Of a stretch of DNA of 41,643 bases, positions 857-40,051 are shown piece by piece. Source of the stretch: an uncultured Clostridia bacterium (GTDB lineage Bacteria; Bacillota; Clostridia; Oscillospirales; Acutalibacteraceae); contig CANPWP010000015.1 of assembly GCA_947584595.1 (NCBI GenBank), forward strand, positions 1-41,643, given 5' to 3'. Within the stretch, counting starts at the first letter, position 1; each line of letters opens with the position of its first letter. The notes beneath the pieces were generated by a model. It saw only the letters and a list, made by a program, of their open reading frames with translations, ran no database searches and was not told the DNA's origin. A program made the position numbers and the translations under genes.

Positions 857-952
857 GCTCGTCTTTTGCCTTATTTTGTATCATAGGTTTTTCAACAAAT
901 CAAAGTGGTTGATATTTTTACCGCCACCTTAAATAAAAAGTTCTAATATGGG

Positions 953-3715
953 GTGATTACAATTAACTCTTTTAAACAACAAAAGGTCAAATTTTTGAGC
1001 TTCTTTTTAGTTGTTGCAATGTTATTTGGAATATTAACTATTCTTCCAATATCTGCCTCAGCTGAAGCAGGGGATACCTTTACGGATAGTCAAGGCCTTA
1101 CATATACAGTAAATAGTGATAACACTACTGTTTCTGTAACAGGTTTTGATAAAAGCACTACCGAAGTAACAATACCGGGACAAATTGAAAATGGAGATAC
1201 TACATACACAGTAACAACAATAGGTTCAGATGCATTTAAAACTTGTTCTGATTTACAATCTGTCGAATTAAATGAGGGAATTGAAACAATAAGTTCGAGT
1301 GCATTTAAAGATTGTACAAATTTAACAGAAATAGTTTTTCCTAAATCTATGTTAACTATAAAAACAAGCGCATTTAGCGATTGTACAGCTTTAAGAAGTG
1401 TAGAATTTAATTCTGATTTGGAATTAGGCACGTGGTCATTCAGAAACTGTACAAATTTAGAAAAAGTAACTTGTAATAGTTTTAATACACAATTAAAGGC
1501 AGCTGCTTTCACGGGTGCTTCCAAATTCACAATATATGGATATGAAGGAAGCAGCGCCGAAACATTTGCGAATGAAAAAAGCTATGAATTCGAAAAAATA
1601 ACTGTAGACCCTACAGTTTTAAATAATCCTTTGGAAGATGCAAAAGCCAAAAGTGAAATTATGTATACAGCTGATTCTTATAAAACGCTTGCGGACGCTA
1701 TAAAAAAAGCTGAAGACATATTAAAACAAGAAAAACCAAGTGATGCTGATATTTTAAATTGCATAAAAGAATTAAATGATGCTATTAACAGTTTGGTATT
1801 AGATAATACTACTAATGACGGTTTTACTTGGCAAACAATTGATGAGGGAAAAGCAATTGAAATCATAGGAGTTGAAAAGCAGGTAGGCAGTGAACTTACA
1901 ATTCCATCAGAAATAAAAGACTTGCCAGTTACTTCTATAGGCACAAGTGCTTTTTTCAATGTAAATTATGCAAATATTATAATCCCTGACTCTGTAACGA
2001 TTATTAAAAAACAAGCATTTAATGTAGGAGTTCTTATAAAAAAAATAACTTTTGGCGAAAATTCTCGGCTTGAAACAATTGAAGATGAGGCTTTTGTTGT
2101 CGATAAGAGTGTAGAAACAGACAAAATGGAGGAAATTTCCCTGCCCGCCTCCTTAAAAACAATTGGAAGCAATGCCTTTGGTCAAAGAAAGAATTTGACT
2201 AAAGTTATAGTTAATTCAAAAGATGTAGAATTTGGCAATAATGTTTTTGAAGGTAACCAAAAACTTACAATTGTAGGTTATGAAAACAGTACGGCTCAGG
2301 CATATGCGGATGCAAACGGTCATAGATTCAGTTACCTTGGAATGGATTTAACAGAACTTAAGGCACTTATTTCTCAGGCAGAGGCAATGAGTCCTCAGAC
2401 TGACGCCCTTAAGACAGCAATCAGAGAAGCAAATAAGTTTGTTGCTCAATATGAGGTTAACGGAATGGGTTCTCCAAGCGACCTTGCAAACTGCATAAAA
2501 GCATTAAAAGAAGCTATGGGAATACAAGACGAGTCAACAACTCAAACTGAGCCTACAACTGTTGAAACAGAACCAACAACTAATGCAACAGAGCCTACGA
2601 CTGATGTAACAGAACCTACAAGTTCTCCTGAACCCGTTTATGAAACTGTACTTCTCGGTGATGCAGACGGCAACGGAATTGTTAATATTAAGGACGTAAC
2701 ATACATTCAGCTTTATCTTGCAAGATTACTGAATCAAAGCGTTAATCCGATTTATTTGAATTGCTGTGATGTAGACGGCGACGGTGAACCTAACATTAAA
2801 GACGCAACACAGCTCCAGTTGTGGTGTGCTAAATTTAATGTAGATTATGAAATCGGTAAGCTTGTACAGCGTGAGGTTACTCCGGGAAGTACTCCCACAA
2901 CACCTACTGACCCGACAACTGCTACACAACCCGATTCGACAACTGCAACTGAAAATCCAACAACTGCTACTGAGAATCCAACAACCGCTACCGACCCACC
3001 AACAATTGATCCAAATTCAGTAAGATTCTATGTTCCTAATGCTGTTGGCTGGTTAACTGATTTAGGCGGAAGTATGTGGCTTTACAATGATGACACTAAG
3101 GAATTCAAGAGAATGATGTATGATGATGAAAATGCAACTTTCTATTTTGATATTCCTAAAGAATGGTCTAATTTGTCAATTTACAGAAGCAGATATGAAA
3201 CAGATGAAACGACGTTTGATATCAACAACAAATGGAATGAAGAAACACAAACAGGTGAAATTCTGAATGAATGGACGGGACTTGGCTCAAGAGGCAGCCA
3301 CGACTGTTACTATATCACTGCTGACGGCAAGGGATATTATACATCATATGAGTCTACCAAAGAAGATGATTATATGAAGACAGTTTACTTTGACAACAGT
3401 GTAACAAAGTGGAGTACAGTATACATCTACGGCTGGGGAAACAGCGGACTTGCCGAGGTAGGCAAAGCAATGACTCATATTGAAGGTACAGATATTTGGT
3501 CTTATACATTTGTTGATCCGTATATTCCTGCATACGGAGTTGAGCAGTTCCTGTTTGTAAACAAACAAACCTCTAAGGCAGATAGTGCAAGCTGGAGCGG
3601 TGCAAGTCAAACCGTTGACCAGGCTATCGAACAAGGGAAAAATCTCTTTGTTCCCTCTTCTGCTACAGGTACATCTATCACCGGTACTTGGGATGTTTAC
3701 ACTCCCGCAGAATAA
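953..3715 (+). CDS. Secreted dockerin protein with BspA-type LRRs and probable starch-binding C-terminus
   Basis: The N-terminus is a signal peptide: basic KQQK, a hydrophobic core at residues 14-32 and an SASA cleavage region near 37. Then come BspA/LRR_5-type leucine-rich repeats (about 60-200), a helical FIVAR-like segment (225-285), a second LRR block (300-460), another helical segment (465-520), a Thr/Pro/Glu linker, and a type I dockerin (about 567-630). The dockerin has two calcium loops, DADGNGIVNIKD and DVDGDGEPNIKD. A second Thr-rich linker leads to two aromatic-rich C-terminal domains; the last (VYFDNSVTKWSTVYIYGW) resembles CBM25/26-type starch-binding modules. The dockerin implies docking to a cohesin in an extracellular complex such as a cellulosome or amylosome. 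No catalytic domain is seen, so a binding or adhesion role is likely. The start is odd: the only in-frame GTG (953) overlaps the SD GGGGTGATT (950-958), and ATT at 962 has ideal spacing. Confidence 0.88.
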   Translation: MITINSFKQQKVKFLSFFLVVAMLFGILTILPISASAEAGDTFTDSQGLTYTVNSDNTTVSVTGFDKSTTEVTIPGQIENGDTTYTVTTIGSDAFKTCSDLQSVELNEGIETISSSAFKDCTNLTEIVFPKSMLTIKTSAFSDCTALRSVEFNSDLELGTWSFRNCTNLEKVTCNSFNTQLKAAAFTGASKFTIYGYEGSSAETFANEKSYEFEKITVDPTVLNNPLEDAKAKSEIMYTADSYKTLADAIKKAEDILKQEKPSDADILNCIKELNDAINSLVLDNTTNDGFTWQTIDEGKAIEIIGVEKQVGSELTIPSEIKDLPVTSIGTSAFFNVNYANIIIPDSVTIIKKQAFNVGVLIKKITFGENSRLETIEDEAFVVDKSVETDKMEEISLPASLKTIGSNAFGQRKNLTKVIVNSKDVEFGNNVFEGNQKLTIVGYENSTAQAYADANGHRFSYLGMDLTELKALISQAEAMSPQTDALKTAIREANKFVAQYEVNGMGSPSDLANCIKALKEAMGIQDESTTQTEPTTVETEPTTNATEPTTDVTEPTSSPEPVYETVLLGDADGNGIVNIKDVTYIQLYLARLLNQSVNPIYLNCCDVDGDGEPNIKDATQLQLWCAKFNVDYEIGKLVQREVTPGSTPTTPTDPTTATQPDSTTATENPTTATENPTTATDPPTIDPNSVRFYVPNAVGWLTDLGGSMWLYNDDTKEFKRMMYDDENATFYFDIPKEWSNLSIYRSRYETDETTFDINNKWNEETQTGEILNEWTGLGSRGSHDCYYITADGKGYYTSYESTKEDDYMKTVYFDNSVTKWSTVYIYGWGNSGLAEVGKAMTHIEGTDIWSYTFVDPYIPAYGVEQFLFVNKQTSKADSASWSGASQTVDQAIEQGKNLFVPSSATGTSITGTWDVYTPAE

Positions 3716-3849
3716 ATGTTTGTATAAAACAAGTTTTCAAATTTTAAAATTCTATACTTCTAATAAATATAAAATTCCTATCTATTCCACTAAATTTTAA
3801 AATTTATAAGTTTTTATTATTATTTTATTTCTAAAAACCAATTAACAGA

Positions 3850-3890
3850 ATGCCCTGACAGAGAAATCTGTCAGGGCATTTTTGCGTTTT
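3850..3890 (+). terminator. Rho-independent terminator of the dockerin gene
   Basis: ATGCCCTGACAGA at 3850-3862 pairs perfectly with TCTGTCAGGGCAT at 3867-3879 around a GAAA loop. A U-rich tail follows (TTTTTGCGTTTT). It lies about 135 bp after the stop codon. Confidence 0.92.
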
Positions 3891-3969
3891 ATTTTAATAT
3901 AATATACCCATTCGCTCTCTCCTCCAACCCTTTCAATATATAAAAATTTTACCTTATTTTAAAATAATA

Positions 3970-3998
3970 TTGGCTATTTTGAAATTTTGTAGTATAAT
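3970..3998 (+). promoter_or_regulatory. Sigma-A promoter of the apbE operon
   Basis: TTGGCT at 3970-3975 and a perfect TATAAT at 3993-3998 are separated by 17 bp. The transcript would start near 4005, ahead of the apbE SD at 4017-4021. This also rules out the TTG at 3970 as the apbE start, since it lies in the -35 box. Confidence 0.8.
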
Positions 3999-4029
3999 GT
4001 TTTATATAATGTCTATAAGGATTGATTTT

Positions 4030-5040
4030 TTGAATTTCATGCGTAAATTCTCAATTTTATTTATGACTGTCGCTGTTTTATTTTGCTCAGCCTGTGATTT
4101 TGACTCAAAGGCTGACAGCGAATTTTTTGCCATGGACACGATTATGTCAATTACTGCTTACGGCAGCAACAGTCAAAGTGCTGTCAGTGCGGCTGAAAAT
4201 GAAATCAACAGGCTTGATAAATTGCTCTCTGTTCAAAATGAAAACAGCGAGATTTTTAAATTGAACCGTGATAAATCAATTAACGCTTCCGCAGATACTG
4301 TTACTCTTTTAAAACGTGCGATGAATTTTTATACTCTGACCGACGGCGCTTTTGACATTACAACTGAACCGCTCACCCGTGCATGGGGATTTTATTCGGG
4401 ACTTGAAAAGCGAGTCCCCTCACAAAATGAAATTGATAATGCCCTTAAAACCGTTGGTGCGGAGCATATTAATATTGACAATAAAAATATAACCCTTGAC
4501 GAAAATACTTCTTTAGATTTGGGCGGAATTGCTAAAGGCTATGCCTCTGCAAAAACGGCACAAATTTTTAAAGAAAACGGTGTTTCTTCGGCGTTGATTT
4601 CTCTGGGCGGCAACGTAAGAGTTGTAGGCTCAAAGCCTGACGGTTCTGACTGGAGCGTTGCAATTACCGACCCTGATGATAATTCTAAGCAAGTCGGTAC
4701 GCTTGCGGTCAGGGATACTGCTGTTGTTACCTCGGGAAGTTATCAGCGTTATTTTGAGGAAAACGGACATATTTATCATCATATAATAGATACAGAAACA
4801 GGATATCCGGCACAAAGCGGTTTGAAATCGGTTACGGTCGTGTCGGAAGACGATACCCTTGCAGACGCTCTTTCAACCGGTCTTTTTGTTATGGGACTTG
4901 AAAAATCAAGTAAACTTTACAGCAAAAACAGTGCCCTTTTCGGGGCAGTATTTGTTACCGATAAAAACGAGATTTATATTACAGACAACCTTGAAAACAG
5001 ATTTTCATCACAACATAAATTTGAGGTGATCGAAAGATGA
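4030..5040 (+). CDS. apbE: ApbE-type FAD:protein FMN transferase, lipoprotein
   Basis: ApbE enzymes use FAD to attach FMN covalently to a Thr hydroxyl of target proteins such as RnfD, RnfG and NqrB/C, outside the membrane. The protein has a lipoprotein signal ending in the lipobox LFCSAC. It then carries the ApbE fold: EFFAMDTIMSI, the LDLGGIAKGYA motif, LISLGGNVR, the VAITDP region and HHIIDTETGYP with the metal-binding Asp. The start is the TTG at 4030, 8 nt after AAGGA; the ATG at 4039 is the alternative. The frame is open further upstream, but that part lies in the promoter. It overlaps the next gene by ATGA. The acceptor proteins are encoded just downstream in the rnf operon, which fits its role as the Rnf flavinylator. 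Confidence 0.93.
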   Translation: MNFMRKFSILFMTVAVLFCSACDFDSKADSEFFAMDTIMSITAYGSNSQSAVSAAENEINRLDKLLSVQNENSEIFKLNRDKSINASADTVTLLKRAMNFYTLTDGAFDITTEPLTRAWGFYSGLEKRVPSQNEIDNALKTVGAEHINIDNKNITLDENTSLDLGGIAKGYASAKTAQIFKENGVSSALISLGGNVRVVGSKPDGSDWSVAITDPDDNSKQVGTLAVRDTAVVTSGSYQRYFEENGHIYHHIIDTETGYPAQSGLKSVTVVSEDDTLADALSTGLFVMGLEKSSKLYSKNSALFGAVFVTDKNEIYITDNLENRFSSQHKFEVIER

Positions 5041-5417
5041 AAACCCGCACTTGGATAATAATTTTATCATCAGCTGTGATTGTATGCGCTGTTTTGTGGA
5101 TGTTCATTTTAAATTCATCATCTCCGTCAAAAATTGTTGGAATTTATCAGGACGGCAGCCTTGTTGAAAAAATCGACCTTAACAGTGTTACCGATGAGCG
5201 TGAAATAACTCTTAACGGTAAATTTGGTAAAAACATAATTTTTATATCCCACGGACATATTGAAATGAAGTCAGCCGAATGTCCCGACAAAATTTGCGTC
5301 AAACACGGTGCTCTCGAAATCGGCGGCACGCCTATTGTCTGTTTGCCTAATAAGGTTGTTATTCAATTTGAGGAAACTCCTTACGGTGCAGACGCAAAAA
5401 CAGGAGCGGCAGAATGA
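5037..5417 (+). CDS. NusG domain II-containing membrane-anchored protein
   Basis: One N-terminal membrane segment (WIIILSSAVIVCAVLWMFIL) is followed by a small extracytoplasmic domain. That domain carries the features of the NusG_II family (DUF1312-like): the hydrophobic IVGIYQDGSLVEKIDL strand pair and the motif CPDKICVKHG, followed by VCLPNKVVI. The two Cys of CPDKIC are conserved in the family, whose function is unknown. Genes of this type often sit between apbE and a Gx-transporter gene near rnf. Translational coupling is clear: it overlaps apbE by 4 nt at its start and the next gene by 4 nt at its end. Confidence 0.88.
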   Translation: MKTRTWIIILSSAVIVCAVLWMFILNSSSPSKIVGIYQDGSLVEKIDLNSVTDEREITLNGKFGKNIIFISHGHIEMKSAECPDKICVKHGALEIGGTPIVCLPNKVVIQFEETPYGADAKTGAAE

Positions 5418-5923
5418 AAATAAAAAATCTGATTTTAACTGCAATTCTTACAGCTATGGCCCTTGTCGCCTTTACAATTGAGGCGGCAATTCCTCCTCTG
5501 ACCCCTATATACGGCATAAAGCTTGGGATTGCAAATGTATTTACGCTTTTCGCCCTTTACGCTTTGGGAACTCGTTATGCGGCGGCTTTACTGTTTTTGA
5601 GAATCGTTTTGGGAAGCATATTTACAGGTCAGGCAGTATCATTTATCTACAGTCTGGCAGGCGGAGTGCTCTCCTTTATTCTTATGATACTGCTCAAAAG
5701 ATTTTTTCCGCTTAAACAAGTCTGGATTTTAAGCGTGCTGTGCGCCGTGATGCACAACATAGGTCAGCTTTTGGCGGCAATATTTATGACAGCAACGGTG
5801 CAAATTATCTATTATCTTCCCGTGCTTGTGATATCGGGCATAATCGCAGGAGCGTTTACGGGCTTATGCGCTCAGCTTGTACTTATGCGTCTTAAAAAGT
5901 GGTCTGATAGCCGTTACAGTTAA
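5414..5923 (+). CDS. Gx transporter family membrane protein (Hpre_diP_synt_I family)
   Basis: The 169 residues form five or six membrane helices with Gly-rich loops (AIPPLTPIYGIKLGIANV, FLRIVLGSIFTG, SLAGGVLSF, AVMHNIGQL). This is the pattern of the family annotated as heptaprenyl diphosphate synthase component I or Gx transporter. The family resembles small ECF-type substrate-binding subunits; substrate transport is inferred, and a flavin-related substrate would fit the apbE context but is unproven. It is the last gene of the apbE operon and overlaps the NusG_II gene by ATGA. Confidence 0.85.
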   Translation: MKIKNLILTAILTAMALVAFTIEAAIPPLTPIYGIKLGIANVFTLFALYALGTRYAAALLFLRIVLGSIFTGQAVSFIYSLAGGVLSFILMILLKRFFPLKQVWILSVLCAVMHNIGQLLAAIFMTATVQIIYYLPVLVISGIIAGAFTGLCAQLVLMRLKKWSDSRYS

Positions 5924-5947
5924 ATTTACTTAATTTGTGTGTATAAT
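5920..5947 (+). promoter_or_regulatory. Promoter of the rnf operon
   Basis: A perfect -10 TATAAT is at 5942-5947, with a weaker -35 TTAAAT at 5920-5925 and 16 bp between them. The start of rnfC with SD TTGGAGG follows at 5993. Read-through from the apbE operon is also possible, since I see no terminator in between. Confidence 0.65.
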
Positions 5948-5992
5948 GTAATAAATAGTTTATTTTAATATAAAATTTGGAGGATAGAAAAT

Positions 5993-7315
5993 ATGAAATT
6001 AAGCGGTATCAGAGTTCCGCACAGAAAAAATACTGCGGACATCATACCCCAAAGGCTTCCTCTGCCTGAAACAGTGGTAATTCCTATGTCAATGCATATC
6101 GGAAAGCCTGCCGTACCTACGGTTAAAATTGGTGAGAGGGTGACCGTTGGACAGCTTATAGGTTCTGCCGACGGATTTATCAGTGCTCCTGTACATTCAA
6201 GTGTATCGGGCAAAGTCAAAAAGCTTGATGAAATTACTATGTCAGGCGGAATGAAAACAACTGCCGTTGTGATTGAAACTGACGGTATGCAGAAGATTTG
6301 CGAAAGCGTAAAGCCTCCCGTTGTGACGGATTTTGAAAGTTTTATAAGCGCAGTAAAGGAAAGCGGAATCGTCGGCTTAGGCGGCGCAGGTTTTCCCACG
6401 TTTGTAAAATTAGGCGTAAAGGATTTATCAGCTGTTGAGGCGGTTGTAATCAATGCGGCCGAATGTGAGCCTTACATAACCTCAGACACAAGAACAATGC
6501 TTGACAAAGCGGAATATATTTCAAAAGGAATTGACCTGCTTCAAAAGTATTTGGGTGCAAAACGCATTATAATCGGGATTGAAAACAATAAAAAGCCCTG
6601 TATTGACAAGATGACAGAACTTGCAAACAGCAAAAGCGGCGTTGAGGTAAAAGTGCTGCCTTCTGTTTATCCTCAGGGCGGTGAAAAGGTGCTTGTATAC
6701 AACACCACAGGCAGGCTCATTCCAAAGGGCGGTCTGCCCCTTGATGTAGGTGCAATTGTAATCAACTGTACTACGCTAACAGCTATAGCTGAATACATTG
6801 AAACAGGTATGCCTCTTGTTGAAAAATGCATTACTGTAGACGGCTCTGCCGTTAAAGAATCTAAAAATGTAATAGCCCCGATAGGAACTCCTATTGAAAA
6901 ACTGTTTGACTTTTGCGGAGGATTTAAATCAGAACCCAAAAAGGTGCTTTACGGCGGTCCGATGATGGGTATAGCTGTGCCGTCGCTGGATGCTCCTGTG
7001 CTTAAAATGACTAATGCCGTAATTGCGTTTGACGAAAAAGAGGCAAGACCTCCCAAAACTACTTCATGTATAAACTGCGGTCAATGTATAAACCATTGCC
7101 CTCTCAGGCTTGATCCGCCTGCAATTGCAAAGGCTTATAAGCTTGATTTGTGTGAAGAACTTAAAAAACTATGTGCCGATTTATGTATGGAATGCGGTTG
7201 CTGCGGATATGTCTGTCCTGCAAAAAGACCGATTGTACAGACTAACAAGCTTGCAAAAGCAAAGCTTAACAAATATTTAAAAGAACAAAAGGCTGAAAAG
7301 GAGGAGAAAAAATGA
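5993..7315 (+). CDS. rnfC: Rnf complex subunit RnfC
   Basis: RnfC is the peripheral subunit of the ferredoxin:NAD+ oxidoreductase that pumps Na+ or H+. It binds NADH/FMN and carries two 4Fe-4S clusters. The sequence shows the RnfC N-terminus, a biotinyl-lipoyl-like barrel (SAPVHSSVSGKVKKL), the Gly-rich GLGGAGFPT flavin/NADH motif with AAECEPY, a SLBB-like region, and two C-terminal cluster motifs, CINCGQCINHCP (about 359-370) and CMECGCCGYVCP (about 397-408). The length (440) is normal for clostridial RnfC. The SD is GGAGG with good spacing. The gene order C-D-G-E-A-B is the clostridial one. Confidence 0.97.
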   Translation: MKLSGIRVPHRKNTADIIPQRLPLPETVVIPMSMHIGKPAVPTVKIGERVTVGQLIGSADGFISAPVHSSVSGKVKKLDEITMSGGMKTTAVVIETDGMQKICESVKPPVVTDFESFISAVKESGIVGLGGAGFPTFVKLGVKDLSAVEAVVINAAECEPYITSDTRTMLDKAEYISKGIDLLQKYLGAKRIIIGIENNKKPCIDKMTELANSKSGVEVKVLPSVYPQGGEKVLVYNTTGRLIPKGGLPLDVGAIVINCTTLTAIAEYIETGMPLVEKCITVDGSAVKESKNVIAPIGTPIEKLFDFCGGFKSEPKKVLYGGPMMGIAVPSLDAPVLKMTNAVIAFDEKEARPPKTTSCINCGQCINHCPLRLDPPAIAKAYKLDLCEELKKLCADLCMECGCCGYVCPAKRPIVQTNKLAKAKLNKYLKEQKAEKEEKK

Positions 7316-8232
7316 ATAAATTGATATCTTCTGTTTCTCCTCATATTTCATCACCGAGAACAACGCAGAAAATTATGCTTGATGTGCTTATTGCCCTGCT
7401 TCCAGCCGGAATTGCTTCGGTTATAATTTTCGGAATAAGGTCGATGTTGGTCATAGGCATATGCGTTGCAGTATGTATTGCGTCTGAGTGGGTGTTTGAA
7501 AAAATCTGCAAAAAGGAAAACACCATATACGATCTTTCGGCTGTTGTGACAGGTGTTCTGCTTGCATACAATTTACCTGTTTCTATCCCTTTGTGGCAGG
7601 CGGCTTTCGGAAGTCTGTTTGCGATTGTTGTTGTAAAACAGCTTTTCGGCGGTATAGGTCAGAACTTTGCAAACCCTGCAATCACTGCTCGAATTGTTAT
7701 GATGACAGCTTTTTCGGGCACTATGACAACGTGGACGTTCCCCGACGCTTCTTCAAGTGCAACGCCTCTTGTTCTTTTGTTCAAAGGAGAACTTGCTTCA
7801 CTTCCCTCATATACAGATATGCTGCTGGGAATTAGGGGAGGCTGTTTAGGCGAAACCTGCACAATTGCTCTGCTTGCAGGTGGAATTTACCTAATTGCAA
7901 GACGTGTAATAACTTGGCATACACCTGTTGCATTTATCGGTACTGTACTTGTAATGTCGTTAATATTTGATAAAGCGCCAATTTATCAGCTTATGTCGGG
8001 CGGACTTATTATAGGTGCATTCTTTATGGCTACCGATTACGCAACAACTCCATCTACTAAATGGGGAAAGGTGATTTTTGGCATAGGCTGTGGACTTATT
8101 ACAATATTAATCAGATTCTGGGGTACTTCTCCCGAGGGTGTGTCGTTCTCAATTTTACTGATGAACATTTTTACACCATACATTTCAAGGCTTACCCGTT
8201 CAAAGCCTCTCGTCGGAGGTGACAAGCGGTGA
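7312..8232 (+). CDS. rnfD: Rnf complex subunit RnfD
   Basis: This is the integral membrane subunit with covalently bound FMN. Eight or more hydrophobic segments are visible. The flavinylation site is SSATPL with acceptor Thr151, in place of the commoner SGATPL. The tail loop ATDYATTPSTKWGK is also typical of the NqrB/RnfD family. The gene overlaps rnfC by ATGA and rnfG by 4 nt (GGTGA), so it is translationally coupled on both sides. ApbE upstream is the probable flavin transferase. Confidence 0.97.
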   Translation: MNKLISSVSPHISSPRTTQKIMLDVLIALLPAGIASVIIFGIRSMLVIGICVAVCIASEWVFEKICKKENTIYDLSAVVTGVLLAYNLPVSIPLWQAAFGSLFAIVVVKQLFGGIGQNFANPAITARIVMMTAFSGTMTTWTFPDASSSATPLVLLFKGELASLPSYTDMLLGIRGGCLGETCTIALLAGGIYLIARRVITWHTPVAFIGTVLVMSLIFDKAPIYQLMSGGLIIGAFFMATDYATTPSTKWGKVIFGIGCGLITILIRFWGTSPEGVSFSILLMNIFTPYISRLTRSKPLVGGDKR

Positions 8233-10026: not shown

Positions 10027-10040
10027 CGGAGGTGCAGATA

Positions 10041-10871: not shown

Positions 10872-10966
10872 ATAAAAATTATAATTATTTTACCTGAATT
10901 TGAAGAGCAAATGACTGTCAATTATGACGTCACTGATTTTAATTCGGCAGAAGGAAAATTAAAAAA

Positions 10967-11984: not shown

Positions 11985-12007
11985 TTTTTGCACTTAACAG
12001 CAACTTG

Positions 12008-29210: not shown

Positions 29211-29225
29211 GGTGAGGTTTAGTCT

Positions 29226-29254
29226 ATAAATCTTCGTTTGGAATGAAGATTTAT
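29226..29254 (+). promoter_or_regulatory. Hairpin that overlaps the methyltransferase start codon
   Basis: ATAAATCTTC (29226-29235) pairs perfectly with GAAGATTTAT (29245-29254). The ATG at 29253-29255 overlaps the last two bases of the stem. The structure may limit initiation. Confidence 0.5.
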
Positions 29255-30471
29255 GTCCATCAAATTTTTTGATATGTTTGCAGGCATCGGCGGTTTCCGT
29301 TCAGGACTTGAAGCCATAGGCGGTTTTGAGTGCGTCGGATACTGCGAAATCGACAAGTATGCAAAGCAGGCATATGAAGCAATGTATGACACGGGAGGTG
29401 AACTTTACTTTGATGATGCAAGAAAAATTGTACCCGAACAGTTACCCGATTTCGACCTTCTTGTTGGAGGGTTTCCCTGTCAGTCCTTCTCAATCGCAGG
29501 AGCGAGAAAAGGATTTGACGATACAAGAGGAACGCTTTTTTTCGAGATTGCTCGAATTGCTGCCGTTAAAAAACCTAAGTATCTCTTCCTCGAAAATGTT
29601 CCCGGTCTGCTTAACCATGACTCAGGCAGGACATTTAAAACAATCCTCCGTACATTGGATGAGTTGGGGTATGATGTATGCTGGCAGGTACTTAACAGCA
29701 AAAATTTCGGAGTTCCCCAGTCACGAAATCGAGTGTTCATTATCGGATATCTTAGAGGACAATGTGCCGGAGAAGTATTATCTTTCACGCAAACAAGCGG
29801 AAAAGCTCTTATACAAAGAAAAGCCAACGCAAGGTGAACGAATCTACTCATCGAAAGGACTTAGCTGTACTCTTACAAGCGGTTCGGGTGGATTTGGCGG
29901 TCATTCGGGACTTTATCTCATTGAAGATACTGTAAACTTTGGTTTGCCGATAAAGTCTAAGACTAAAGACGGTTATCAGATCGCATATCCCGGCGACAGC
30001 ATTGATACTGCTTTTTCTGGACAGAACTCAAGACGTGGTCGAGTCGGCAATCAGGTAGCACATACTCTGACAACTTCCGCAACGCAGGCATATTATTTCA
30101 TAGACCTGAACCCCGATCCGAAACTGACAGAAATTGCAAGGTGCATAACTGCAAGGCAGGATTCGGGAATCAGTAACCGCAAAGCTGAGCATTCGGGAGT
30201 TTTTGTAGAAAATTCAGATGTTCTTGATGACAATGAAAAGTTTGCAGTAGTTTTTGTTGAGCCAAACGGCGAAGTCCATATCGGCAGAATCAGAAAGCTC
30301 ACTCCGAGAGAGTGCTGGAGATTGCAGGGCTTCACGGATGAGCAGTTCAACAAGGCAAAATCGACTGGACTATCCGACAGCAGACTCTACAAGATGGCAG
30401 GAAACGCTGTGACAGTAAATGTAATTTCTGAAATTGGTCAGACTATTAAAAAAGTAAACGATAAAAATTAA
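29253..30471 (+). pseudogene. DNA (cytosine-5) methyltransferase, frameshifted
   Basis: The first part (frame of 29253) shows m5C-MTase motif I FAGIGGF, motif IV GGFPCQSFSIAG with the catalytic Cys, the ENV motif LFLENVPG, and motif VIII QSRNRVFIIG. After about 29745 the family likeness moves to the +1 frame (from SDILEDNVPEKYYLS), which holds the target-recognition part, motif IX RKLTPRECWRLQGF and motif X KMAGNAVTVNVI, and ends at 30471. The first frame runs on without likeness to 29837. The same bases around 29743-29760 fit the family in both frames, which looks like a small deletion that removed the linker. Without frameshifting, no complete enzyme is made. It is an orphan MTase typical of ICEs. 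Confidence 0.85.
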
Positions 30472-30479
30472 ATAACAAC

Positions 30480-30566
30480 AACTGATATCAATCGTTCCAA
30501 ACGACTGATATTGGTTTTCATATATAAGCCGTTGGTTGAGTTAAAAACTTAATCAACGGCTTTTTG
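30480..30566 (+). terminator. Two hairpins, the second with a U-run, between the methyltransferase genes
   Basis: Hairpin A is 30480-30496 with 30500-30516 (imperfect). Hairpin B is 30526-30542 with 30546-30562, 17 bp with two G-U pairs, and five U follow. Hairpin B reads as an intrinsic terminator for the plus strand. Confidence 0.7.
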
Positions 30567-30572
30567 TAGTTT

Positions 30573-30621
30573 CAGGGGCGGTTGATATTCTGAAAAGGAA
30601 GTGAGAATATCAAAACCCCTG
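30573..30621 (+). promoter_or_regulatory. Hairpin that holds the dam SD in its loop
   Basis: The arms 30573-30591 and 30604-30621 pair over about 16 bp with a small internal mismatch. The loop contains AAGGAAGTG, the only SD for the next gene. The 3' arm contains the ATC proposed as the start codon. Confidence 0.5.
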
Positions 30622-31583
30622 TTAGTTGGATGGGAAATAAAACTTCCATCCTTCATATTTTGTACGCTCTGTTTCCTCTGAATTACGAAAGATACATTGA
30701 ACCCTTCGGAGGTTCGGGAGCCGTACTTTTAGGCAAGAAAAAGCCTGATAAGTTCGAGGTGTACAACGATTACAATCATAATCTTGTAAACCTTTTTCGC
30801 TGTATGCGTGACAGACCTATGGCGTTCATAAAAGAACTCGGATTTTATCCGCTTAATTCAAGGGATTATTTCAATGCAATCAGGGATTTCTTCACGCAGG
30901 AGAAGTTTGAGGATAAGTACCTTGATGAGGAATTGGAACTGACGAAGATTATTCTTCCCGACTTGAAAGCAGAAGAAATCATTGAATTGTATATAAAAAT
31001 GAAACAGGACTACGACTTGCGCAGAGCAGTAATGTTTCTGAAACTCTTACGATACAGCTACTCAAGCGGAGGAAAATCCTTTGCCTGTCAGCCCTTTTCA
31101 GTAGTGGGCCTTTTTCAACTGATAGAGCAAGTCGGAAAACGGCTTGAAAATGCGGTGATTGAAAATCAGGATTTTGAGGTTTTAATCAAGCATTATGACC
31201 GAGATAATGCCTTTTTCTACTGCGATCCGCCGTACTATTCAAGCGAGTATGTTTATCAGTGCGGTTTCACTTGGGATGACCATCTGAGGCTGAAAAACAC
31301 GCTTGCAAATTCAAAGGGTAAATGGCTTGTTTCATACAACGATTGTGAAGAAATCCGCAATTTGTATGACGGATATTCATTCTTTGATTTCACAAGGTTA
31401 CACAATATGAAACAGCGAATCAACGCAGGCGAACAATTCCCCGAACTGTTAATCGGCAACTACGATATGTATGAAAGGCAGAGAAATAAACCGTTGCAGT
31501 TAAGCCTGCTTGACTTGACAACCGAGCAACAAATTGATTTAGAACAAATTTTGAAGGAGTGTATTATTAACCATGGAAAATAA
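30609..31583 (+). CDS. Dam-like DNA adenine methyltransferase (D12 class)
   Basis: The N-terminus KTPVSWMGNKTSILHIL and YIEPFGGSGAVLLGK match motifs of D12-class N6-adenine MTases. The catalytic motif is DPPYY (FFYCDPPYYSS, about residue 204); QRINAGEQFPELLIGNY is near the end. The in-frame ATG at 30630 would remove KTPVSW, which is conserved, and lacks an SD. The SD AAGGAAGTGA at 30595-30604 lies 4 nt before ATC 30609, the proposed start. The target is probably an adenine in a short motif, and the enzyme may protect ICE DNA during transfer. It overlaps the next gene by 11 nt. Confidence 0.88.
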   Translation: MKTPVSWMGNKTSILHILYALFPLNYERYIEPFGGSGAVLLGKKKPDKFEVYNDYNHNLVNLFRCMRDRPMAFIKELGFYPLNSRDYFNAIRDFFTQEKFEDKYLDEELELTKIILPDLKAEEIIELYIKMKQDYDLRRAVMFLKLLRYSYSSGGKSFACQPFSVVGLFQLIEQVGKRLENAVIENQDFEVLIKHYDRDNAFFYCDPPYYSSEYVYQCGFTWDDHLRLKNTLANSKGKWLVSYNDCEEIRNLYDGYSFFDFTRLHNMKQRINAGEQFPELLIGNYDMYERQRNKPLQLSLLDLTTEQQIDLEQILKECIINHGK

Positions 31584-32072: not shown

Positions 32073-32090
32073 ATCGGAGGTAAATTTATA

Positions 32091-32489: not shown

Positions 32490-32560
32490 CAGCAAATAAA
32501 AAAATCTCTGGACATTTCAAAATCTTTGGATATACTTGTTGCTGAAAGGACGGCGATAGT

Positions 32561-33328: not shown

Positions 33329-33339
33329 ATAAAGTATAG

Positions 33340-33371
33340 ACAGCACTCATAATCGGGTGCTGTTATTTTTT
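33340..33371 (+). terminator. Hairpin with U-run before the next ICE gene
   Basis: ACAGCACTC (33340-33348) pairs with GGGTGCTGT (33355-33363), one G-U, followed by TATTTTTTT. It is directly ahead of the SD GAAAGGAATG. Confidence 0.75.
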
Positions 33372-33388
33372 TGAAAGGAATGATCCCA

Positions 33389-33985
33389 ATGAAAATAAAC
33401 CAAATAACTCTAAAAGATCTCCGCCGTATGAACGGCAAGGAAGGGCTCATCTTGCAGGGCTGCGGAGGTGAGGTGCAGGAATGGGTGGACGGCATAAATA
33501 AAATGCTCACGGACAAGGGAATACTTCTTGACGACACAAAGTTTGAGAACGTCTCTGTATTTCAAAATGACGGCGTTACCTGTATTCTCTATCCCTTTGA
33601 AGATGTTCACCTTGATATCGGAAAACTGGCAATGTGGAGATTGCAGTCATACACAGCTTTTGCAGGAATGTGGCTGTCCGACTATGTGGACAACAGACTT
33701 GGCGGGTTTGAACCTGAGCAGAACAAAGAAGAAAAGATCAAACCTGACTGTGCATTAATAGGCTGTGACGGCAATGTGTTTGCTCTACTTGGTATGGCAA
33801 GCCGTACGCTCAAGCAAAACGGTATGGCTGACGAGGCAAAGGAAATGTGCAGTCGTGTTACGAGTTCGGGCAGTTATTGCGAAGCACTGAACATTATCGG
33901 CAAGTATTTAAATATCACAGACGGCAGTGAACAGTCTGATGATATAGATGAAGATTATGGTGAAAGCGAGGCGATGAAATTATGA
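33389..33985 (+). CDS. Conserved ICE hypothetical protein
   Basis: 198 residues. Start ATG 33389 with SD GAAAGGAATG; the TTG at 33371 overlaps the SD. The first part (LRRMNGKEGLILQGCGGEVQEWVDGINKMLTDKGIL) and the C-terminal domain (LIGCDGNVFALLGMASRTLKQNGMADEAKEM, SGSYCEALNIIGKYL) occur in hypothetical proteins of clostridial ICEs. I do not know a function. The tail is acidic. Confidence 0.75.
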   Translation: MKINQITLKDLRRMNGKEGLILQGCGGEVQEWVDGINKMLTDKGILLDDTKFENVSVFQNDGVTCILYPFEDVHLDIGKLAMWRLQSYTAFAGMWLSDYVDNRLGGFEPEQNKEEKIKPDCALIGCDGNVFALLGMASRTLKQNGMADEAKEMCSRVTSSGSYCEALNIIGKYLNITDGSEQSDDIDEDYGESEAMKL

Positions 33986-34015
33986 TTGTATTTAAAACAG
34001 AATAAGACATCAATC

Positions 34016-34047
34016 GGGGCAAGGGTGAAATCTTGCCCCATATTTTT
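34016..34047 (+). terminator. Hairpin with U-run before the adhesin gene
   Basis: GGGGCAAG (34016-34023) pairs perfectly with CTTGCCCC (34032-34039), then ATATTTTT. The adhesin SD (GAAAGG) follows immediately. Confidence 0.75.
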
Positions 34048-34064
34048 ATGAAAGGATTTTTAAA

Positions 34065-37000
34065 ATGACTAATTTAATCAGAAATAAGAAATTCACAAGA
34101 ATGACGGCACTCTTACTTGCGGTTGCAGTAATATTCGGAACAATGCTCACTCTCCCCGTAAGCGCGGCAAGTGGTGATAAGGTGACAATCACCTTCGATT
34201 ATTGTTATGACAGCGCAGGAAACATAATCAAATTTCAGCAGACAACGGTCAGCGACGGCTACACAGTCGGCACTCCCGGCGAAGAGCTGTGCAAGATTTT
34301 TGCAGACGGAAAAGAAGCCTACTGCATTGAACCCGGTCATACACTCTACTCAGGAAATACGCTGACCGAGGACGGTTCAACCGTCTGGAAGAATTTAGGC
34401 TCTGCAAAGCAGAAAGCAATCAATCTTGCTCTGCTCTACGGTAAACCCGGTTCGGGAAAAAACTTAAGCGGAACAGAGGATCAGAAGTGGGTAGCAACAC
34501 AGCTGATAGTCTGGGAATTTGTTTCAGGATGCCGTTCTACAAGCGAAGGCTATAAATGCACAAATACAAAGTTCATTGACGGCATTTGTGCAGGCGGTGC
34601 AAATCCCGGAGTCAAGTCGGTTTACAATGCAATCTCAAAAAGCCTTGCAAATTATTCAACCGTTCCGAGCTTTGCATCGGCAATCGCTTCAAAGGCTGAA
34701 ACCTATGAGATGAAATATTCAGACGGAAAGTACACATTAACTCTTACCGACAGCAACAGTATTCTTTCGGATTTCAGCTTCAAGACAACAGGCGGTGTGA
34801 GCGCATCTGTATCAGGCAACAAGCTCACACTCACCTCCTCAAATCCCGTCAAAGATACAGTAACATTCAACTCTGCAAAATCAATGCCAAGCGTTAGCGG
34901 TACTACTCTTGTTCCCTACGGTGACGCAAGTCTTCAGGATGTAATCACAGGCGTTGAAAATGACGCTGACCCGATAAGAGCATATTTCAAGGTCAAGACA
35001 AGCTCGGGCAACCTAAAGCTTGTCAAAACCTCCGAGGACGGCAATATTGCAAATATTGAGTTTACTGTCAACGGCGATGGTTACAGTAAGACAGTTAAGA
35101 CAAACTCAAAGGGTGAATTTGAATTAACCGACCTTGTTCCCGGCAATTACACAGTTACAGAAGTTACCGACAGTAAGTACGAAACGCAGAAATCGCAGAC
35201 CGTTAAGGTTGAAAGCGGCAAAACGGCAACGGTTACGTTTGAAAATGTCCTCAGGAAAGGCAGTCTTGAAGTAGTAAAAACCAGTGAGGATAATTTCAAC
35301 GAGGGAGTTAAATTCCACCTTTACGGAACTTCACTCAGCGGTGCAAGCGTTGATTTGTACGCAACAACAAATGCTGACGGTGCTGCCACTTTTACAAATG
35401 TTCTCGTTAGCGGCGACAAGCCATATACGCTTGAAGAAGTTGATACAGCCGACAGATATGTTGTTCCAAAAAAGCAGACTGCTACTGTTGAATGGAACAA
35501 GGTAACGCAGAGAAGTTTTGAAAATGTGCTTAAAAAGTGGAATCTTACTGTTACAAAAACAGATGCTGAAACGAAGTCTGCACAGGGTGATGCAACACTT
35601 GCAGGAGCAGTTTACGGTATCTACAATAACGGCAAGTTGGTTGACAAATACACCACAGACAAGAACGGCAGTTTCACCACATCTTACTATATTTGCGGTG
35701 ACAACTGGACTTTAAAAGAAATTGACCCGAGCGAGGGTTATCTGCTTGACGAAAACGAATATCATATCGGTGCAGAAGCAAAGAAATACACCATTGAAAA
35801 TAACAGCGTTTCAATGGGCGTTACCGAGGATATTTTAAATGGAAAAATTGCCATCATCAAGCACACAGATGACGGCAGTACAAAAATTGAAACTCCCGAA
35901 AAAGGTGCAGAATTTCAGGTGTATCTGAAATCATCGGGAAGCTATGCAAAAGCAACAGAATCCGAAAGAGATACGCTTATCTGCGATGAATACGGTTTTG
36001 CAGAAACTAAGGATTTGCCCTACGGAACATACACAGTTCATCAGACCAAAGGCTGGAACGGCATAAAGTTCATTGCCGACTTTGATGTGTTTGTAAACGA
36101 GGACGGCAAAACATATAAATATCTCATCAACAATGCAAGCCTTGAAAGCTATGTAAAGATTGTAAAGGTTGACAGCGAAACAGGCAAACAGATTCCGTAT
36201 GCAGGCGCAGGCTTTCAGATTTATGATCCTGACGGCAAACTCGTGACTATGACCTACACCTATCCCGTAGTAACGACTATTGACACCTTCTATACAAATT
36301 CTGACGGTTACCTTATCACACCCGAAACTCTGCCCTACGGCAAAGGTTATTCAGTCATTGAGGTGCAGGCTCCATACGGATATATTCTTGACAGCACACC
36401 TGTATATTTTGATATTACAGTAGAAAACACAAGGAATGAAAACGGCGTTACAATCGTGAAAGCCGAGAAGAAAAATACTCCGCAGAAAGGTACAATAACC
36501 GTAGAAAAAACAGGCGAGATTTTCTCTAATGTAACTTCATCAGGAGAAGAAGTTACAATTTATCAGCCTGAATATTTTGTAAGCTGTTTGGCTGGTGCGG
36601 TGTTTGAAATTTATGCAGATGAGGACATTACAACTCCTGACGGAACAATTCGATATACAAAAAATACTCTTGTTGACACCATTACCACAGGTAAAAAAGG
36701 CACAGCAACAAGTAAACGGCTTTACCTCGGTAAATATCGTGTTGTTGAAAAAACAGCTCCTAACGGATTTGTTCTGAACTGTACTGTAAATCATATCGAA
36801 CTCACTTATGCAGGACAGAATGAAAAGGTGACTAACACCTCAGCATCATTTACTAACGACAGGCAAAAGGTTGAAATCGTCCTTACAAAAATTCTTGAAC
36901 AGGACGAGAAATTCAATATCGGTGGTAACGATGAAACCCTCAATGTTTTATTCGGACTTTACGCTGATGAAGATTTGAAAGCCGCAAACGGAACGGTCAT

Positions 37001-38387
37001 TCCAAAAGACGGACTTCTTGAAATCATCACCTGTGATGAAAAAGGCAAGGCAACCTTCACAACTGACCTTCCAATCGGCAGTTACTATGTTAAGGAAATC
37101 AGCACTGACAGCCACTACATTCTTTCAGATAAAAAATACCCTGTTGTGTTTGAATACGCAGGACAGGATACAGCAACTGTTCATATTTCTGTAAATGACG
37201 GTGAACCAATCATCAACGACATTATCTACGGTACAATCAAAGGCTTAAAGATTGACCGTGAAACAGGCAAAAAAATATCAGGCGCATTGTTCGGATTGTT
37301 CAGTAATAATGAAACTAAATTCACAGAAGAAACTGCAATTCTCACCGCTGAATCAAACGAGGAAGGAATCTTCACTTTTGAAAATGTGCCTTACGGAGAA
37401 TACATTATCCGTGAGTTAAAGCCTGCCGAGGGTTATCTCCCGAATGAAGAAAACTATACTGTAAAAGTTTCAGAGAATGATGAAATTATCGAAATCACAG
37501 TTGAGAACGATAAAATACCCGAACTCGGAACAACTGCAACTATTGACGGCAAAAAGGAAGTCGGTGCAACAGAAGTGTTCACCCTTGAAGATGTTGTAGA
37601 GTACAAGCATCTTGTACCCGGCAAGGAGTACACGGTTAAGGGTGTTCTTATGGATAAGGCAACAGAAAAAGAGTTGTTGATTGACGGCAAGAAAATCACC
37701 TCGGAAGTTAAATTCACACCCGAAGAACCAACAGGCGAGGTTATTGTTTCCTTTGAATTCGATGCAAGATATATCAAGGAAGAAACAAATATTGTCGTTT
37801 TTGAAGGTCTTTACAGTGAGGATAAAGAGCTTGCAGTTCACGCAGATATTGAGGACGAAAGTCAGACCGTAACTGTTAAAATCCCGAAAATCGGAACAAA
37901 GGCAAGCATTGACGACAAAAAGGAATTCACAGCTAACGGAGATATTACCATTGATGATGTTGTATCCTACAAGAACCTCACAGCAGGAAAAGAATACACA
38001 ATCAGCGGTGTGCTTATGGACAAAGCAACAGGCAAGGCATTCCTTGTTGACGGTAAGGAAGTTAGTTCCGAAGTAACATTCACACCCGAAACAGCAGACG
38101 GCGAAGTAACAGCATCATTCACTTTTGATGGCTCTGTAATTACCAAAGATACAGAAATCGTTGTGTTTGAAACTCTCTACCATGAGGGAACAGAAATTGC
38201 AGTACACGCTGACATTGAAGATGAGAATCAGACTGTAACAATTCATCCGCAGCCTGAACCTGAAAAACCGCAGACAGGCGACGATTCAAATCTTGGCTTT
38301 TATATTGGCTTAGGTTCTGTTGCTGTCGGAGGTTTAATTGCATTTCTCATCATCAAATTCAAAAAGAAAGATGAGGACGATGAATAA
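34065..38387 (+). CDS. Giant LPXTG-like surface adhesin: thioester domain, Cna-B repeats, VaFE repeats
   Basis: 1440 residues. There is a signal peptide (cleavage near SAAS, residue 37). Residues 45-200 form a thioester domain with the reactive Cys in EAYCIEPG and the Gln in ATQLIVWEF, which would form a Cys-Gln thioester able to bond a host or partner amine. About seven SpaA/Cna-B-type beta-sandwich repeats follow, each with a TVxE-type strand that can form isopeptide bonds. Two VaFE/T-Q ester repeats follow (GTTATIDGKKEV and GTKASIDDKKEF). The C-terminus is a sorting signal PQTGD, a membrane helix, and a KKKDEDDE tail. It is cell-wall anchored by a sortase, probably the one nearby. Adhesion to donor or recipient cells or to mucosa is inferred. 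Confidence 0.92.
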   Translation: MTNLIRNKKFTRMTALLLAVAVIFGTMLTLPVSAASGDKVTITFDYCYDSAGNIIKFQQTTVSDGYTVGTPGEELCKIFADGKEAYCIEPGHTLYSGNTLTEDGSTVWKNLGSAKQKAINLALLYGKPGSGKNLSGTEDQKWVATQLIVWEFVSGCRSTSEGYKCTNTKFIDGICAGGANPGVKSVYNAISKSLANYSTVPSFASAIASKAETYEMKYSDGKYTLTLTDSNSILSDFSFKTTGGVSASVSGNKLTLTSSNPVKDTVTFNSAKSMPSVSGTTLVPYGDASLQDVITGVENDADPIRAYFKVKTSSGNLKLVKTSEDGNIANIEFTVNGDGYSKTVKTNSKGEFELTDLVPGNYTVTEVTDSKYETQKSQTVKVESGKTATVTFENVLRKGSLEVVKTSEDNFNEGVKFHLYGTSLSGASVDLYATTNADGAATFTNVLVSGDKPYTLEEVDTADRYVVPKKQTATVEWNKVTQRSFENVLKKWNLTVTKTDAETKSAQGDATLAGAVYGIYNNGKLVDKYTTDKNGSFTTSYYICGDNWTLKEIDPSEGYLLDENEYHIGAEAKKYTIENNSVSMGVTEDILNGKIAIIKHTDDGSTKIETPEKGAEFQVYLKSSGSYAKATESERDTLICDEYGFAETKDLPYGTYTVHQTKGWNGIKFIADFDVFVNEDGKTYKYLINNASLESYVKIVKVDSETGKQIPYAGAGFQIYDPDGKLVTMTYTYPVVTTIDTFYTNSDGYLITPETLPYGKGYSVIEVQAPYGYILDSTPVYFDITVENTRNENGVTIVKAEKKNTPQKGTITVEKTGEIFSNVTSSGEEVTIYQPEYFVSCLAGAVFEIYADEDITTPDGTIRYTKNTLVDTITTGKKGTATSKRLYLGKYRVVEKTAPNGFVLNCTVNHIELTYAGQNEKVTNTSASFTNDRQKVEIVLTKILEQDEKFNIGGNDETLNVLFGLYADEDLKAANGTVIPKDGLLEIITCDEKGKATFTTDLPIGSYYVKEISTDSHYILSDKKYPVVFEYAGQDTATVHISVNDGEPIINDIIYGTIKGLKIDRETGKKISGALFGLFSNNETKFTEETAILTAESNEEGIFTFENVPYGEYIIRELKPAEGYLPNEENYTVKVSENDEIIEITVENDKIPELGTTATIDGKKEVGATEVFTLEDVVEYKHLVPGKEYTVKGVLMDKATEKELLIDGKKITSEVKFTPEEPTGEVIVSFEFDARYIKEETNIVVFEGLYSEDKELAVHADIEDESQTVTVKIPKIGTKASIDDKKEFTANGDITIDDVVSYKNLTAGKEYTISGVLMDKATGKAFLVDGKEVSSEVTFTPETADGEVTASFTFDGSVITKDTEIVVFETLYHEGTEIAVHADIEDENQTVTIHPQPEPEKPQTGDDSNLGFYIGLGSVAVGGLIAFLIIKFKKKDEDDE

Positions 38388-38737
38388 TGCACAGGGTGTA
38401 TATCTGTTCGCCTTTGGGCGGAAATGTATCTGCAAATATTGAAAACGCAAAACGATATGCCCGATATGCGTTAGAGTGCGGTATGGCTCCGTTCATACCG
38501 CATTTTTATGCGCTGATTTTAGATGACAGCAACAAAGAAGAAAGAAACCTCGGAATGCTTGCCGGACTTTCTATGCTTTGGGTTTGTGATGCGGTCTGGG
38601 TTTTCGGAGATAAAATAACCGAGGTCATGAAAACAGAGATTCGCTTCGCTGAAAAGCTGAACATCAAAGTCAGGTATATATCGGAAAATGATCTAAGAAA
38701 ATCGGAGGTACAAAATGATAAAATCAAGAAAAATTAA
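38387..38737 (+). CDS. DUF4406-like nucleoside 2-deoxyribosyltransferase-fold protein
   Basis: 116 residues, VYICSPLGGNVSANIENAKRYARYALECGMAPFIPHFYALILDDS..ERNLGM and LWVCDAVWVFGD. This is the DUF4406/NDT-like Rossmann fold common in ICEs and phages. No biochemical role is known. The start overlaps the stop of the adhesin by one base (TAATG), and the end overlaps the next gene. Confidence 0.82.
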   Translation: MHRVYICSPLGGNVSANIENAKRYARYALECGMAPFIPHFYALILDDSNKEERNLGMLAGLSMLWVCDAVWVFGDKITEVMKTEIRFAEKLNIKVRYISENDLRKSEVQNDKIKKN

Positions 38738-39059
38738 GTTGTTGAAGTGGATAGCAGGAATATCAGTAATACTGTTAATGGTCGGAATATCGGCAGTAAC
38801 AGTCTTTGCCGCAGGCGATGTATCATCAGCAATAGAAAGCACATGGACCTCGGCTCAAACACAGATTAAAAATGTTGTAAACAATGTTGTCTTTCCTGCT
38901 GTAGATATGATTCTTGCTATACTTTTCTTTGTTAAACTCGCAACGGCGTATATGGACTATCGAAAGCACGGACAGTTTGAGTTCACCGCACCGGCAATTC
39001 TTTTCGGATGTCTTGTGTTCTCTCTTACAGCACCGCTATACATTTGGACGGTACTCTAA
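38715..39059 (+). CDS. VirB2/TrbC-like conjugation protein (DUF3852 type)
   Basis: 114 residues. A signal-like first helix (IAGISVILLMVGISAVTVFAA) ends at AAG. Two more helices follow, with a small loop, as in VirB2 pilin-like proteins of Gram-positive ICEs (FPAVDMILAILFFVKLATAYMDYRKHGQFEFTAPAILFGCLVFSLTAPLYIW). The SD is CGGAGG. It probably forms part of the transfer channel. Confidence 0.78.
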   Translation: MIKSRKIKLLKWIAGISVILLMVGISAVTVFAAGDVSSAIESTWTSAQTQIKNVVNNVVFPAVDMILAILFFVKLATAYMDYRKHGQFEFTAPAILFGCLVFSLTAPLYIWTVL

Positions 39060-39072
39060 TAACAATAAAAAC

Positions 39073-39105
39073 AAGGCTGTTGTGTTGAATCATAACAGTC
39101 TTTTG
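39073..39105 (+). terminator. Hairpin with short U-run before the VirB6-like gene
   Basis: AAGGCTGTTGTG (39073-39084) pairs with CATAACAGTCTT (39091-39102), two G-U, then TT. The SD GAGGTGA of the next gene begins 5 nt later. Confidence 0.65.
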
Positions 39106-39109
39106 CGAG

Positions 39110-40051
39110 GTGATTTATATTTTTGATTGGTTAGGAGATTTCATCGGTGGAATTGGCAGTGCCATAGGCAGTGTGTTTGATTACCTCGGTGAACAAATCT
39201 CAAACGCTATATGGAACACAATGCTTCAGTGGTTTTATGAAACAATTTACAACGCTGTTGCAGACTTCTTCACGATGATGGGAAATATGGGCGCAGATGT
39301 TTTTGACCTTGAATGGGTGCAGACGACAATAAATCTGTTTACGCTTTTCGGCTGGGCATTGTTCGTCGCAGGAACGGTCGTCGCCGTATTTGATGTGGCT
39401 GTTGAATATCAGAACGGCAGAGCAAACATAAAGACAACTGCAATTAATGTCTTAAAAGGTTTCTTTGCCTGTTCGCTGTTCGGCGTTGTACCTGTGGAAC
39501 TTTACAAATTCTGCATCAGCCTGCAAAACACATTTTCAAAGGATTTGTCATCCATAATGGCAGGACAGCAAAGTCTTGATTTAGCCGGACAAAGCACAAG
39601 TGTTTTAGAGGGAAGTTTTGCAGTCGCAAACCAGACAACATTCGGGTTGCTGAATCTGTTATGCTTGATAGCCTTTGCTTACTGCATTATTAAAATATTC
39701 TTTGCAAACATCAAGCGTGGCGGAATTCTGCTGATTCAGATGGCGGTAGGTGCGTTGTATATGTTCAGCGTTCCAAGAGGTTATCAGGACGGCTTCAATC
39801 AGTGGATGAAACAGATAGCGGCGCTTTGTCTGACAGCATTTATGCAGACAACTCTGCTGTTCCTCGGGTTGCTGACCTTCCCCGGCAATATGCTTTTAGG
39901 ACTTGGAATAATGCTTGCATCAAACGAAGTCCCGAGAATTGCACAGCAGTTCGGACTGGATTCAAGCGTAAAGGTGAATGTGACGAGCATTGTTCACGCA
40001 ACTACAACTGCTGTTAATCTGACGAGAAGTGTTGCGAGGGCAGCTAAATAA
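39110..40051 (+). CDS. VirB6/TrbL-like integral membrane conjugation protein
   Basis: About 310 residues with an amphipathic N-terminus (FDWLGDFIGGIGSAIGSVFDYLGEQISNAIWN) and six or so helices. This matches the CD0411-type VirB6-like proteins of clostridial ICEs, the inner-membrane part of the transfer channel. The start is uncertain. GTG 39110 overlaps the SD GAGGTGA (39107-39113), whereas ATT 39119 has ideal spacing and would place a start directly before FDWLGDF, where relatives begin. The feature uses the GTG, the only conventional codon. Confidence 0.82.
   Translation: MIYIFDWLGDFIGGIGSAIGSVFDYLGEQISNAIWNTMLQWFYETIYNAVADFFTMMGNMGADVFDLEWVQTTINLFTLFGWALFVAGTVVAVFDVAVEYQNGRANIKTTAINVLKGFFACSLFGVVPVELYKFCISLQNTFSKDLSSIMAGQQSLDLAGQSTSVLEGSFAVANQTTFGLLNLLCLIAFAYCIIKIFFANIKRGGILLIQMAVGALYMFSVPRGYQDGFNQWMKQIAALCLTAFMQTTLLFLGLLTFPGNMLLGLGIMLASNEVPRIAQQFGLDSSVKVNVTSIVHATTTAVNLTRSVARAAK

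Follow-up and report, generated by a model that had tools for sequence, protein, structure and literature searches.

Comparison of relatives supports predicted AUU and AUC start codons in three genes of an uncultured Clostridia bacterium

The common gene callers accept only ATG, GTG and TTG as start codons. In contig CANPWP010000015.1 of an uncultured Clostridia bacterium of the Acutalibacteraceae (assembly GCA_947584595.1), three genes have a Shine-Dalgarno (SD) sequence ahead of an in-frame ATT or ATC instead. They are a gene for a protein with LRR_5 and Dockerin_1 domains (the LRR gene), the adenine methylase gene dam, and trbL, which encodes a conjugal transfer membrane protein. This raises the question of where ribosomes begin on these genes. 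We analyzed the whole contig of 41,643 nt (the window) together with relatives of the three genes. In our judgment it is likely that the three codons are real AUU and AUC starts, placed 7-8 nt after the SD. Ribosomes probably initiate there with fMet, but more slowly than at AUG, so that the weak codon would act as a constant throttle on translation. Initiation at AUU/AUC is a prediction well supported by the comparison of relatives, and this reading rests on conservation, because the start codons of homologues fall exactly there.

Re-reading of the sequence confirmed the three SD sequences and the ATT or ATC codons that follow them (Table 1). A preliminary description of the window had stated that GTG 953 and GTG 39110 are the sole usual codons upstream of ATT 962 and ATT 39119, each within the SD, and that dam has no ATG, GTG or TTG ahead of ATG 30630. 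Both statements held, and in dam an in-frame TGA lies at 30591-30593. Spacing was counted from the last G of the aligned AGGAGG to the codon. The SD energy is that computed for the upstream stretch pairing with the 16S 3' end. The genome sample consisted of the window and a further 367 kb, together 409 kb with 295 gene models, and the spacing of its ATG genes with an SD peaked at 7-8. The SD energy of ATT 962 was equalled by only 10% of 231 ATG genes and that of ATT 39119 by only 2%, and that of the dam ATC by 73% (median of the ATG genes, -10.7 kcal/mol). The earlier wording of a perfect, extended SD at all three sites is thus right for 962 and 39119 and wrong for dam, whose SD is ordinary. 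The competing codons are nearly without an SD (GTG 953, -3.9; GTG 39110, -2.4; ATG 30630, -2.2 kcal/mol), which argues that the SDs serve the AUU and AUC codons.

The preliminary description had also raised the question of whether relatives carry ATG at the same positions. For dam, relatives were collected from GTDB contigs (33 loci) and from two whole-genome searches with differing E-value limits, in which 27 of 150 genomes and 14 of 391, respectively, had a match. After dereplication and removal of distant or partial rows, 46 rows were kept. Those dropped were eight duplicates, rows below 39% identity (including L009, with ATG), L011 (a short piece, with ATG), L030 (same frame as L007), and L021, L038 and L064 (no N-terminus). 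Plasmid and phage Dam relatives, all less than 60% identical, were kept out of the codon counts; viral contigs held one distant Dam and one partial TrbL. The aligned codon was ATC in 18 rows, ATT in 5, TTG in 17, ATG in 3, GTG in 2 and GTA in 1. A usual codon therefore stands at this position in 22 of the 46 rows, and ATH (here ATC or ATT) is conserved at the homologous start in 23, two of them doubtful. Every Leu was encoded by TTG and every Val by GTG, bar one unclear GTA row (L150), a pattern that fits a start codon better than an inner residue. Eight sequences (L033, L043, L141, L063, L054, L060, L031 and the window) have no possible start other than ATC or ATT after an in-frame stop.

The start residue was left out of the alignment for a dam protein tree, in which, according to a warning of the program, long branches met. 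The ATH label required 4 changes on this tree versus 15.6 when shuffled, and ATH rows formed a clade of 12 including the window (support 100/100) and a clade of 8 (92/80). This genome carries another dam, with 56% identity, and its codon is likewise ATC. Among the other ATH rows, SD energies were -11.4 to -24.1 kcal/mol in 16 and weaker in L032, L037, L039, L148 and L149; L057 was left out of this comparison.

For trbL, copies were sought in 19 genomes reached via the dam loci (15 with a match) and in 391 genomes of the class (4 with a close match), so the sample leans towards dam-carrying elements. A partial row (L066) and rows of at most 54% identity with a different N-terminus (L075-L081, L084-L087, L089, L186, L187) were dropped; the visible starts of the latter were ATG, or TTG in L081. 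A plasmid search gave no TrbL match. The 14 copies with the same N-terminus had ATT (6), ATA (1), ATG (6) or TTG (1), so that seven relatives carry a usual start at exactly the ATT codon. In each of them a stop codon in the same frame lies 3-9 nt ahead of the start, so the position of the trbL start is certain. The ATT copies came from YE282 (two), FMBCY1, 5AMG, the SUG987 metagenome genome and the window, and YE282 and SUG987 each contain ATT as well as ATG copies. This genome also has a second trbL (L188, contig C33), with TTG immediately after an in-frame TGA.

The N-terminus of the LRR gene matched four genes in this genome. Three have ATT behind GGGGTG- or GAGGTG-type SDs (C15:962, C3:149138 and, on the minus strand, C29:1859). 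The fourth paralogue (C13) and one relative (L156) have ATG at the same aligned codon, and in the remaining relatives, wherever it is visible, ATG stands at a codon close by. Ahead of the LRR gene, at 831-856, there is a perfect inverted repeat with an SD-like arm, GGGAGGTGG, and an anti-SD-like arm, CCACCTCCC.

Several observations weigh against AUU/AUC initiation. The dam SD of the window is average, and those of L037 and L039 are weaker still. In L032, L036, L037, L039, L050 and L053, an in-frame ATG lies 6 nt ahead of the ATC or ATT; these six ATGs sit inside the SD at spacing 2, and spacings of 3 or less were found in 8 of 240 ATG genes. At the position of this upstream ATG, a single base separates the window from the 98% relative L032. 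Of the 23 ATH dam rows, L148 and L149 lack an SD at the ATH codon and likely start further upstream. Each of the seven ATT/ATA trbL copies and each of the three LRR genes with ATT has an in-frame GTG 9 nt upstream. Five of these trbL copies, the window's own included, are at least 96% identical to the window protein, so the seven represent about three lineages and not seven events. Among the genomes searched, none but this one showed ATT in the LRR gene.

The number of such sites is also no argument by itself. A blind scan took all frames of 80 codons or more in the window and found 32 strong-SD sites, defined by an SD energy of -11 or stronger, spacing 7-8 and no ATG, GTG or TTG in reach. ATH stood at 4 of these 32 sites versus 2.6 expected from codon usage (P 0.26). 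The four were 962, 39119, 29842 and 11274, the last inside a PP-loop protein gene; the dam site was absent because its SD is too weak. Since this count is at chance, site density alone proves nothing, and the surprise is the conservation of the start position. The earlier claim that three such genes in 42 kb are unusual finds partial support. At the genome's own rate of 2 in 258 gene models on contigs C2 and C3 (by eye), three among about 37 window genes, an estimate, would be rare (P 0.003), but two of the three belong to a likely conjugative element, which has a separate history.

We also considered whether start selection is relaxed throughout this genome. A first genome scan under a loose rule was too noisy (ATH at 19 of 198 positions versus 8.1% by codon usage) and was set aside. 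Under a stricter rule, 15 gene models lacked a usual codon at their strongest SD, among which infC, the C3 LRR gene and the window LRR gene were convincing; a miaA-like model has an apparent upstream ATG (by eye). In infC, GGAGGTGCTCAAC precedes ATT at spacing 8. IF3 gave a full-length IF3_C match, and the initiator-tRNA stem GGGCTCATAACCC is intact and standard. Because IF3 and the initiator-tRNA stem look normal and about 1% of the sampled genes fit, in a sample of about one quarter of the genome, general relaxation was rejected. By these measures the genome appears normal, and discrimination against AUH starts is expected in it as elsewhere.

Other explanations of the three sites must be weighed against these data. 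The LRR gene and trbL could in fact start at the GTG inside the SD, which would make AUU the fourth codon. This GTG is in frame in all 10 ATT/ATA copies (7 trbL, 3 LRR), and a mechanical list of open reading frames from ATG, GTG or TTG begins at it. However, a codon cannot occupy the P site while pairing with the anti-SD, both GTGs nearly lack an SD of their own, and the ATG of relatives aligns to ATT and not to GTG. The in-frame GTG is moreover an automatic result of GGTG at spacing 8; among the dam sequences, spacings of 7 and 9 occur, and then there is no in-frame GTG in the SD. We therefore regard a start at GTG as unlikely. For dam, the corresponding proposal is a start at ATG 30630, the sole ATG, GTG or TTG near the 5' end after the in-frame stop. 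The protein would then lack IKTPVSW. As the preliminary description had warned, this would remove the conserved KTPVSW, whose Trp at residue 7 is kept in 45 of 46 rows (all but L005, by eye) and is where the MethyltransfD12 match begins. The TTG and ATG relatives start at the ATC position, and ATG 30630 has an SD energy of only -2.2 kcal/mol, so a start there is very improbable.

Base-calling errors, named as possible in the preliminary description, or assembly errors could have turned ATG into ATT or ATC, or the genes could be decayed. The window is part of a 33-contig draft, it differs from L032 by one base next to the dam start, and the adjoining dcm is split across two frames. However, the same dam and trbL codons occur in the Ruminococcus bromii isolates YE282 and 5AMG and in the complete genome FMBCY1, the frames are long and open, and ATC/ATT is spread over two dam clades. 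Errors are therefore unlikely for dam and trbL, and we give hardly any credence to error or decay as the general explanation. It is similarly hard to regard the sites as chance SD-like strings before ordinary Ile codons. The blind scan, with one of its four sites inside a gene, agrees with such an origin, whereas homologous starts fall exactly at the sites in all three families, which makes it highly unlikely.

If ribosomes start at these AUU and AUC codons, as we prefer, the weak codon would limit the dose of three proteins: the methylase, the membrane protein for conjugation and a protein that is probably secreted. Low output may itself be what is selected. Predicted hairpins in the dam and trbL leaders may be further brakes. 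We folded 70 nt upstream of each trbL copy. A GGCUG..CAGYC-type hairpin followed by U residues was found in the ATT/ATA copies and in none of the others, some of which fold differently. The window leader taken alone is unremarkable, and there are close kin among the seven. A DUF3852 gene lies upstream, and the arrangement may be a partial terminator plus a weak start between this gene and trbL.

Folding of the dam leader, 30470-30640, gave -62 kcal/mol (z -7.9). In a predicted hairpin at the start, UUGAUAUUC pairs with GAAUAUCAA, which contains the AUC, and CAGGGG pairs with the CCCCUG of the first codons. In 11 aligned leaders of the 12-row clade (L039, a near copy of L037, was excluded), 83.3% of cells were paired versus 31-52% when slid. 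All 11 leaders keep the three start-codon pairs. The third base of the start codon, C or U, lies opposite an invariant G, so that AUG would break this pair. Covariation was moderate: four pairs had changed on both sides, and 50 of 500 shuffles scored as high. As one arm is partly coding, its conservation has two possible causes. The second AUY clade has no shared hairpin of this kind (by eye), and the start codons of L043 and L141 are paired within different folds; the hairpin therefore cannot be the sole reason for AUY. Rfam at gathering scores found no named element in the leaders, only three tRNAs. By eye, the first leader arm, AUAUCAAUCG (in 30480-30516), could pair either with its own partner or with the start-covering arm 30573-30591, a possible switch. 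The dam start is AUC, AUU, UUG or GUG in 42 of 46 relatives. Tentatively, Dam methylases of mobile elements may be under long-standing selection against AUG, with the Ruminococcus-type AUY built into a hairpin. Terminator, hairpin and weak codon might then form a stacked lock that opens only when initiation is permissive, for example in a new host cell.

Table 1. Predicted start sites and leader elements in the window
Feature	Position	Strand	Evidence
Extended SD of the LRR_5/dockerin gene	950..958	+	GGGGTGATT; -14.7 kcal/mol, spacing 8
LRR_5 + Dockerin_1 protein gene, predicted ATT start 962	962..3715	+	Alignment of paralogues and a relative; in-frame GTG 953 inside SD
SD of dam	30595..30604	+	AAGGAAGTGA; -9.6 kcal/mol, spacing 7
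dam (MethyltransfD12 adenine methylase), predicted ATC start	30609..31583	+	Alignment of relatives
Extended SD of trbL	39107..39113	+	GAGGTGA; -16.3 kcal/mol, spacing 8
trbL (TrbL_5 conjugal transfer membrane protein), predicted ATT start	39119..40051	+	Alignment of copies
Terminator-like hairpin just 5' of the trbL SD	39073..39102	+	7/7 ATT/ATA copies, 0/7 ATG/TTG copies; z -1.6
dcm-dam leader	30472..30570	+	Hairpin 30480-30516, then terminator-like hairpin 30526-30562 ending in a T-run
Hairpin with dam ATC start in 3' arm	30573..30621	+	Most of SD in loop

Upstream of dam, the C5 cytosine methylase gene dcm (29253-30471) is divided between two overlapping frames: 29253-29837 encodes the N-terminal half, and the +1 frame, as far as 30471, the C-terminal half. 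The split is common to L032, L034 and L035, and in L036 dcm is one continuous frame. At 29830-29844, the TGA stop of the N-terminal half overlaps an SD-like AAGGTGA. An ATC in the reading frame of the C-terminal half comes after this SD-like stretch at spacing 7. This stretch is a candidate for a fourth AUC start or for a +1 frameshift site.

Going by the nearest relatives of dam and trbL, the bacterium is likely related to Ruminococcus, but these genes are likely mobile. A methylase family appears to keep a weak start across divergent bacteria, mostly Firmicutes, and in a conjugation gene the choice of AUG or AUU/AUA varies along with a leader hairpin. Such loci would provide a natural series for testing the joint effect of start codon, SD and leader structure on the dose of mobile-element proteins. 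Given the start codons that gene callers accept, families with AUU or AUC starts may carry wrong N-termini in databases. Among the AUC/ATT/ATC-start and Ruminococcus non-AUG reports listed in the open-licence literature, there was no account of these genes.

The standard known case of an AUU start is infC, through which IF3 regulates its own synthesis. The LRR gene and trbL of the window resemble it in having AUU behind an extended SD at spacing 8, the same layout as in the infC of this genome. The difference is that infC encodes IF3, whereas dam, trbL and the LRR gene encode no initiation factor, so no direct feedback loop is expected. In Escherichia coli pcnB, a gene unrelated to the three, an inefficient AUU start is said to limit translation, going by the title of a 2002 report by Binns and Masters. 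A study of Staphylococcus aureus describes starts identified by ribosome profiling at infC (AUA), cvfC1 (AUU), ccpN (AUA) and citZ (AUA); for the first three of these genes it predicts an extended SD (PMC13009471). In its reporters, cvfC1, ccpN and citZ gave about 10% of AUG output in poor medium, and ccpN up to 30% in rich medium; AUU/AUA starts ranged over about 10-30%, and IF3 modulates such starts (PMC13009471). The likeness lies in the non-canonical AUU/AUA starts and, for infC, cvfC1 and ccpN, in the predicted extended SD. The differences are that other genes of another species are concerned, and that here likely mobile-element genes are involved, AUC would be used too, and the starts are predicted from sequence. 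By this comparison, dam, trbL and the LRR gene look like new members of the S. aureus type of AUH-start genes.

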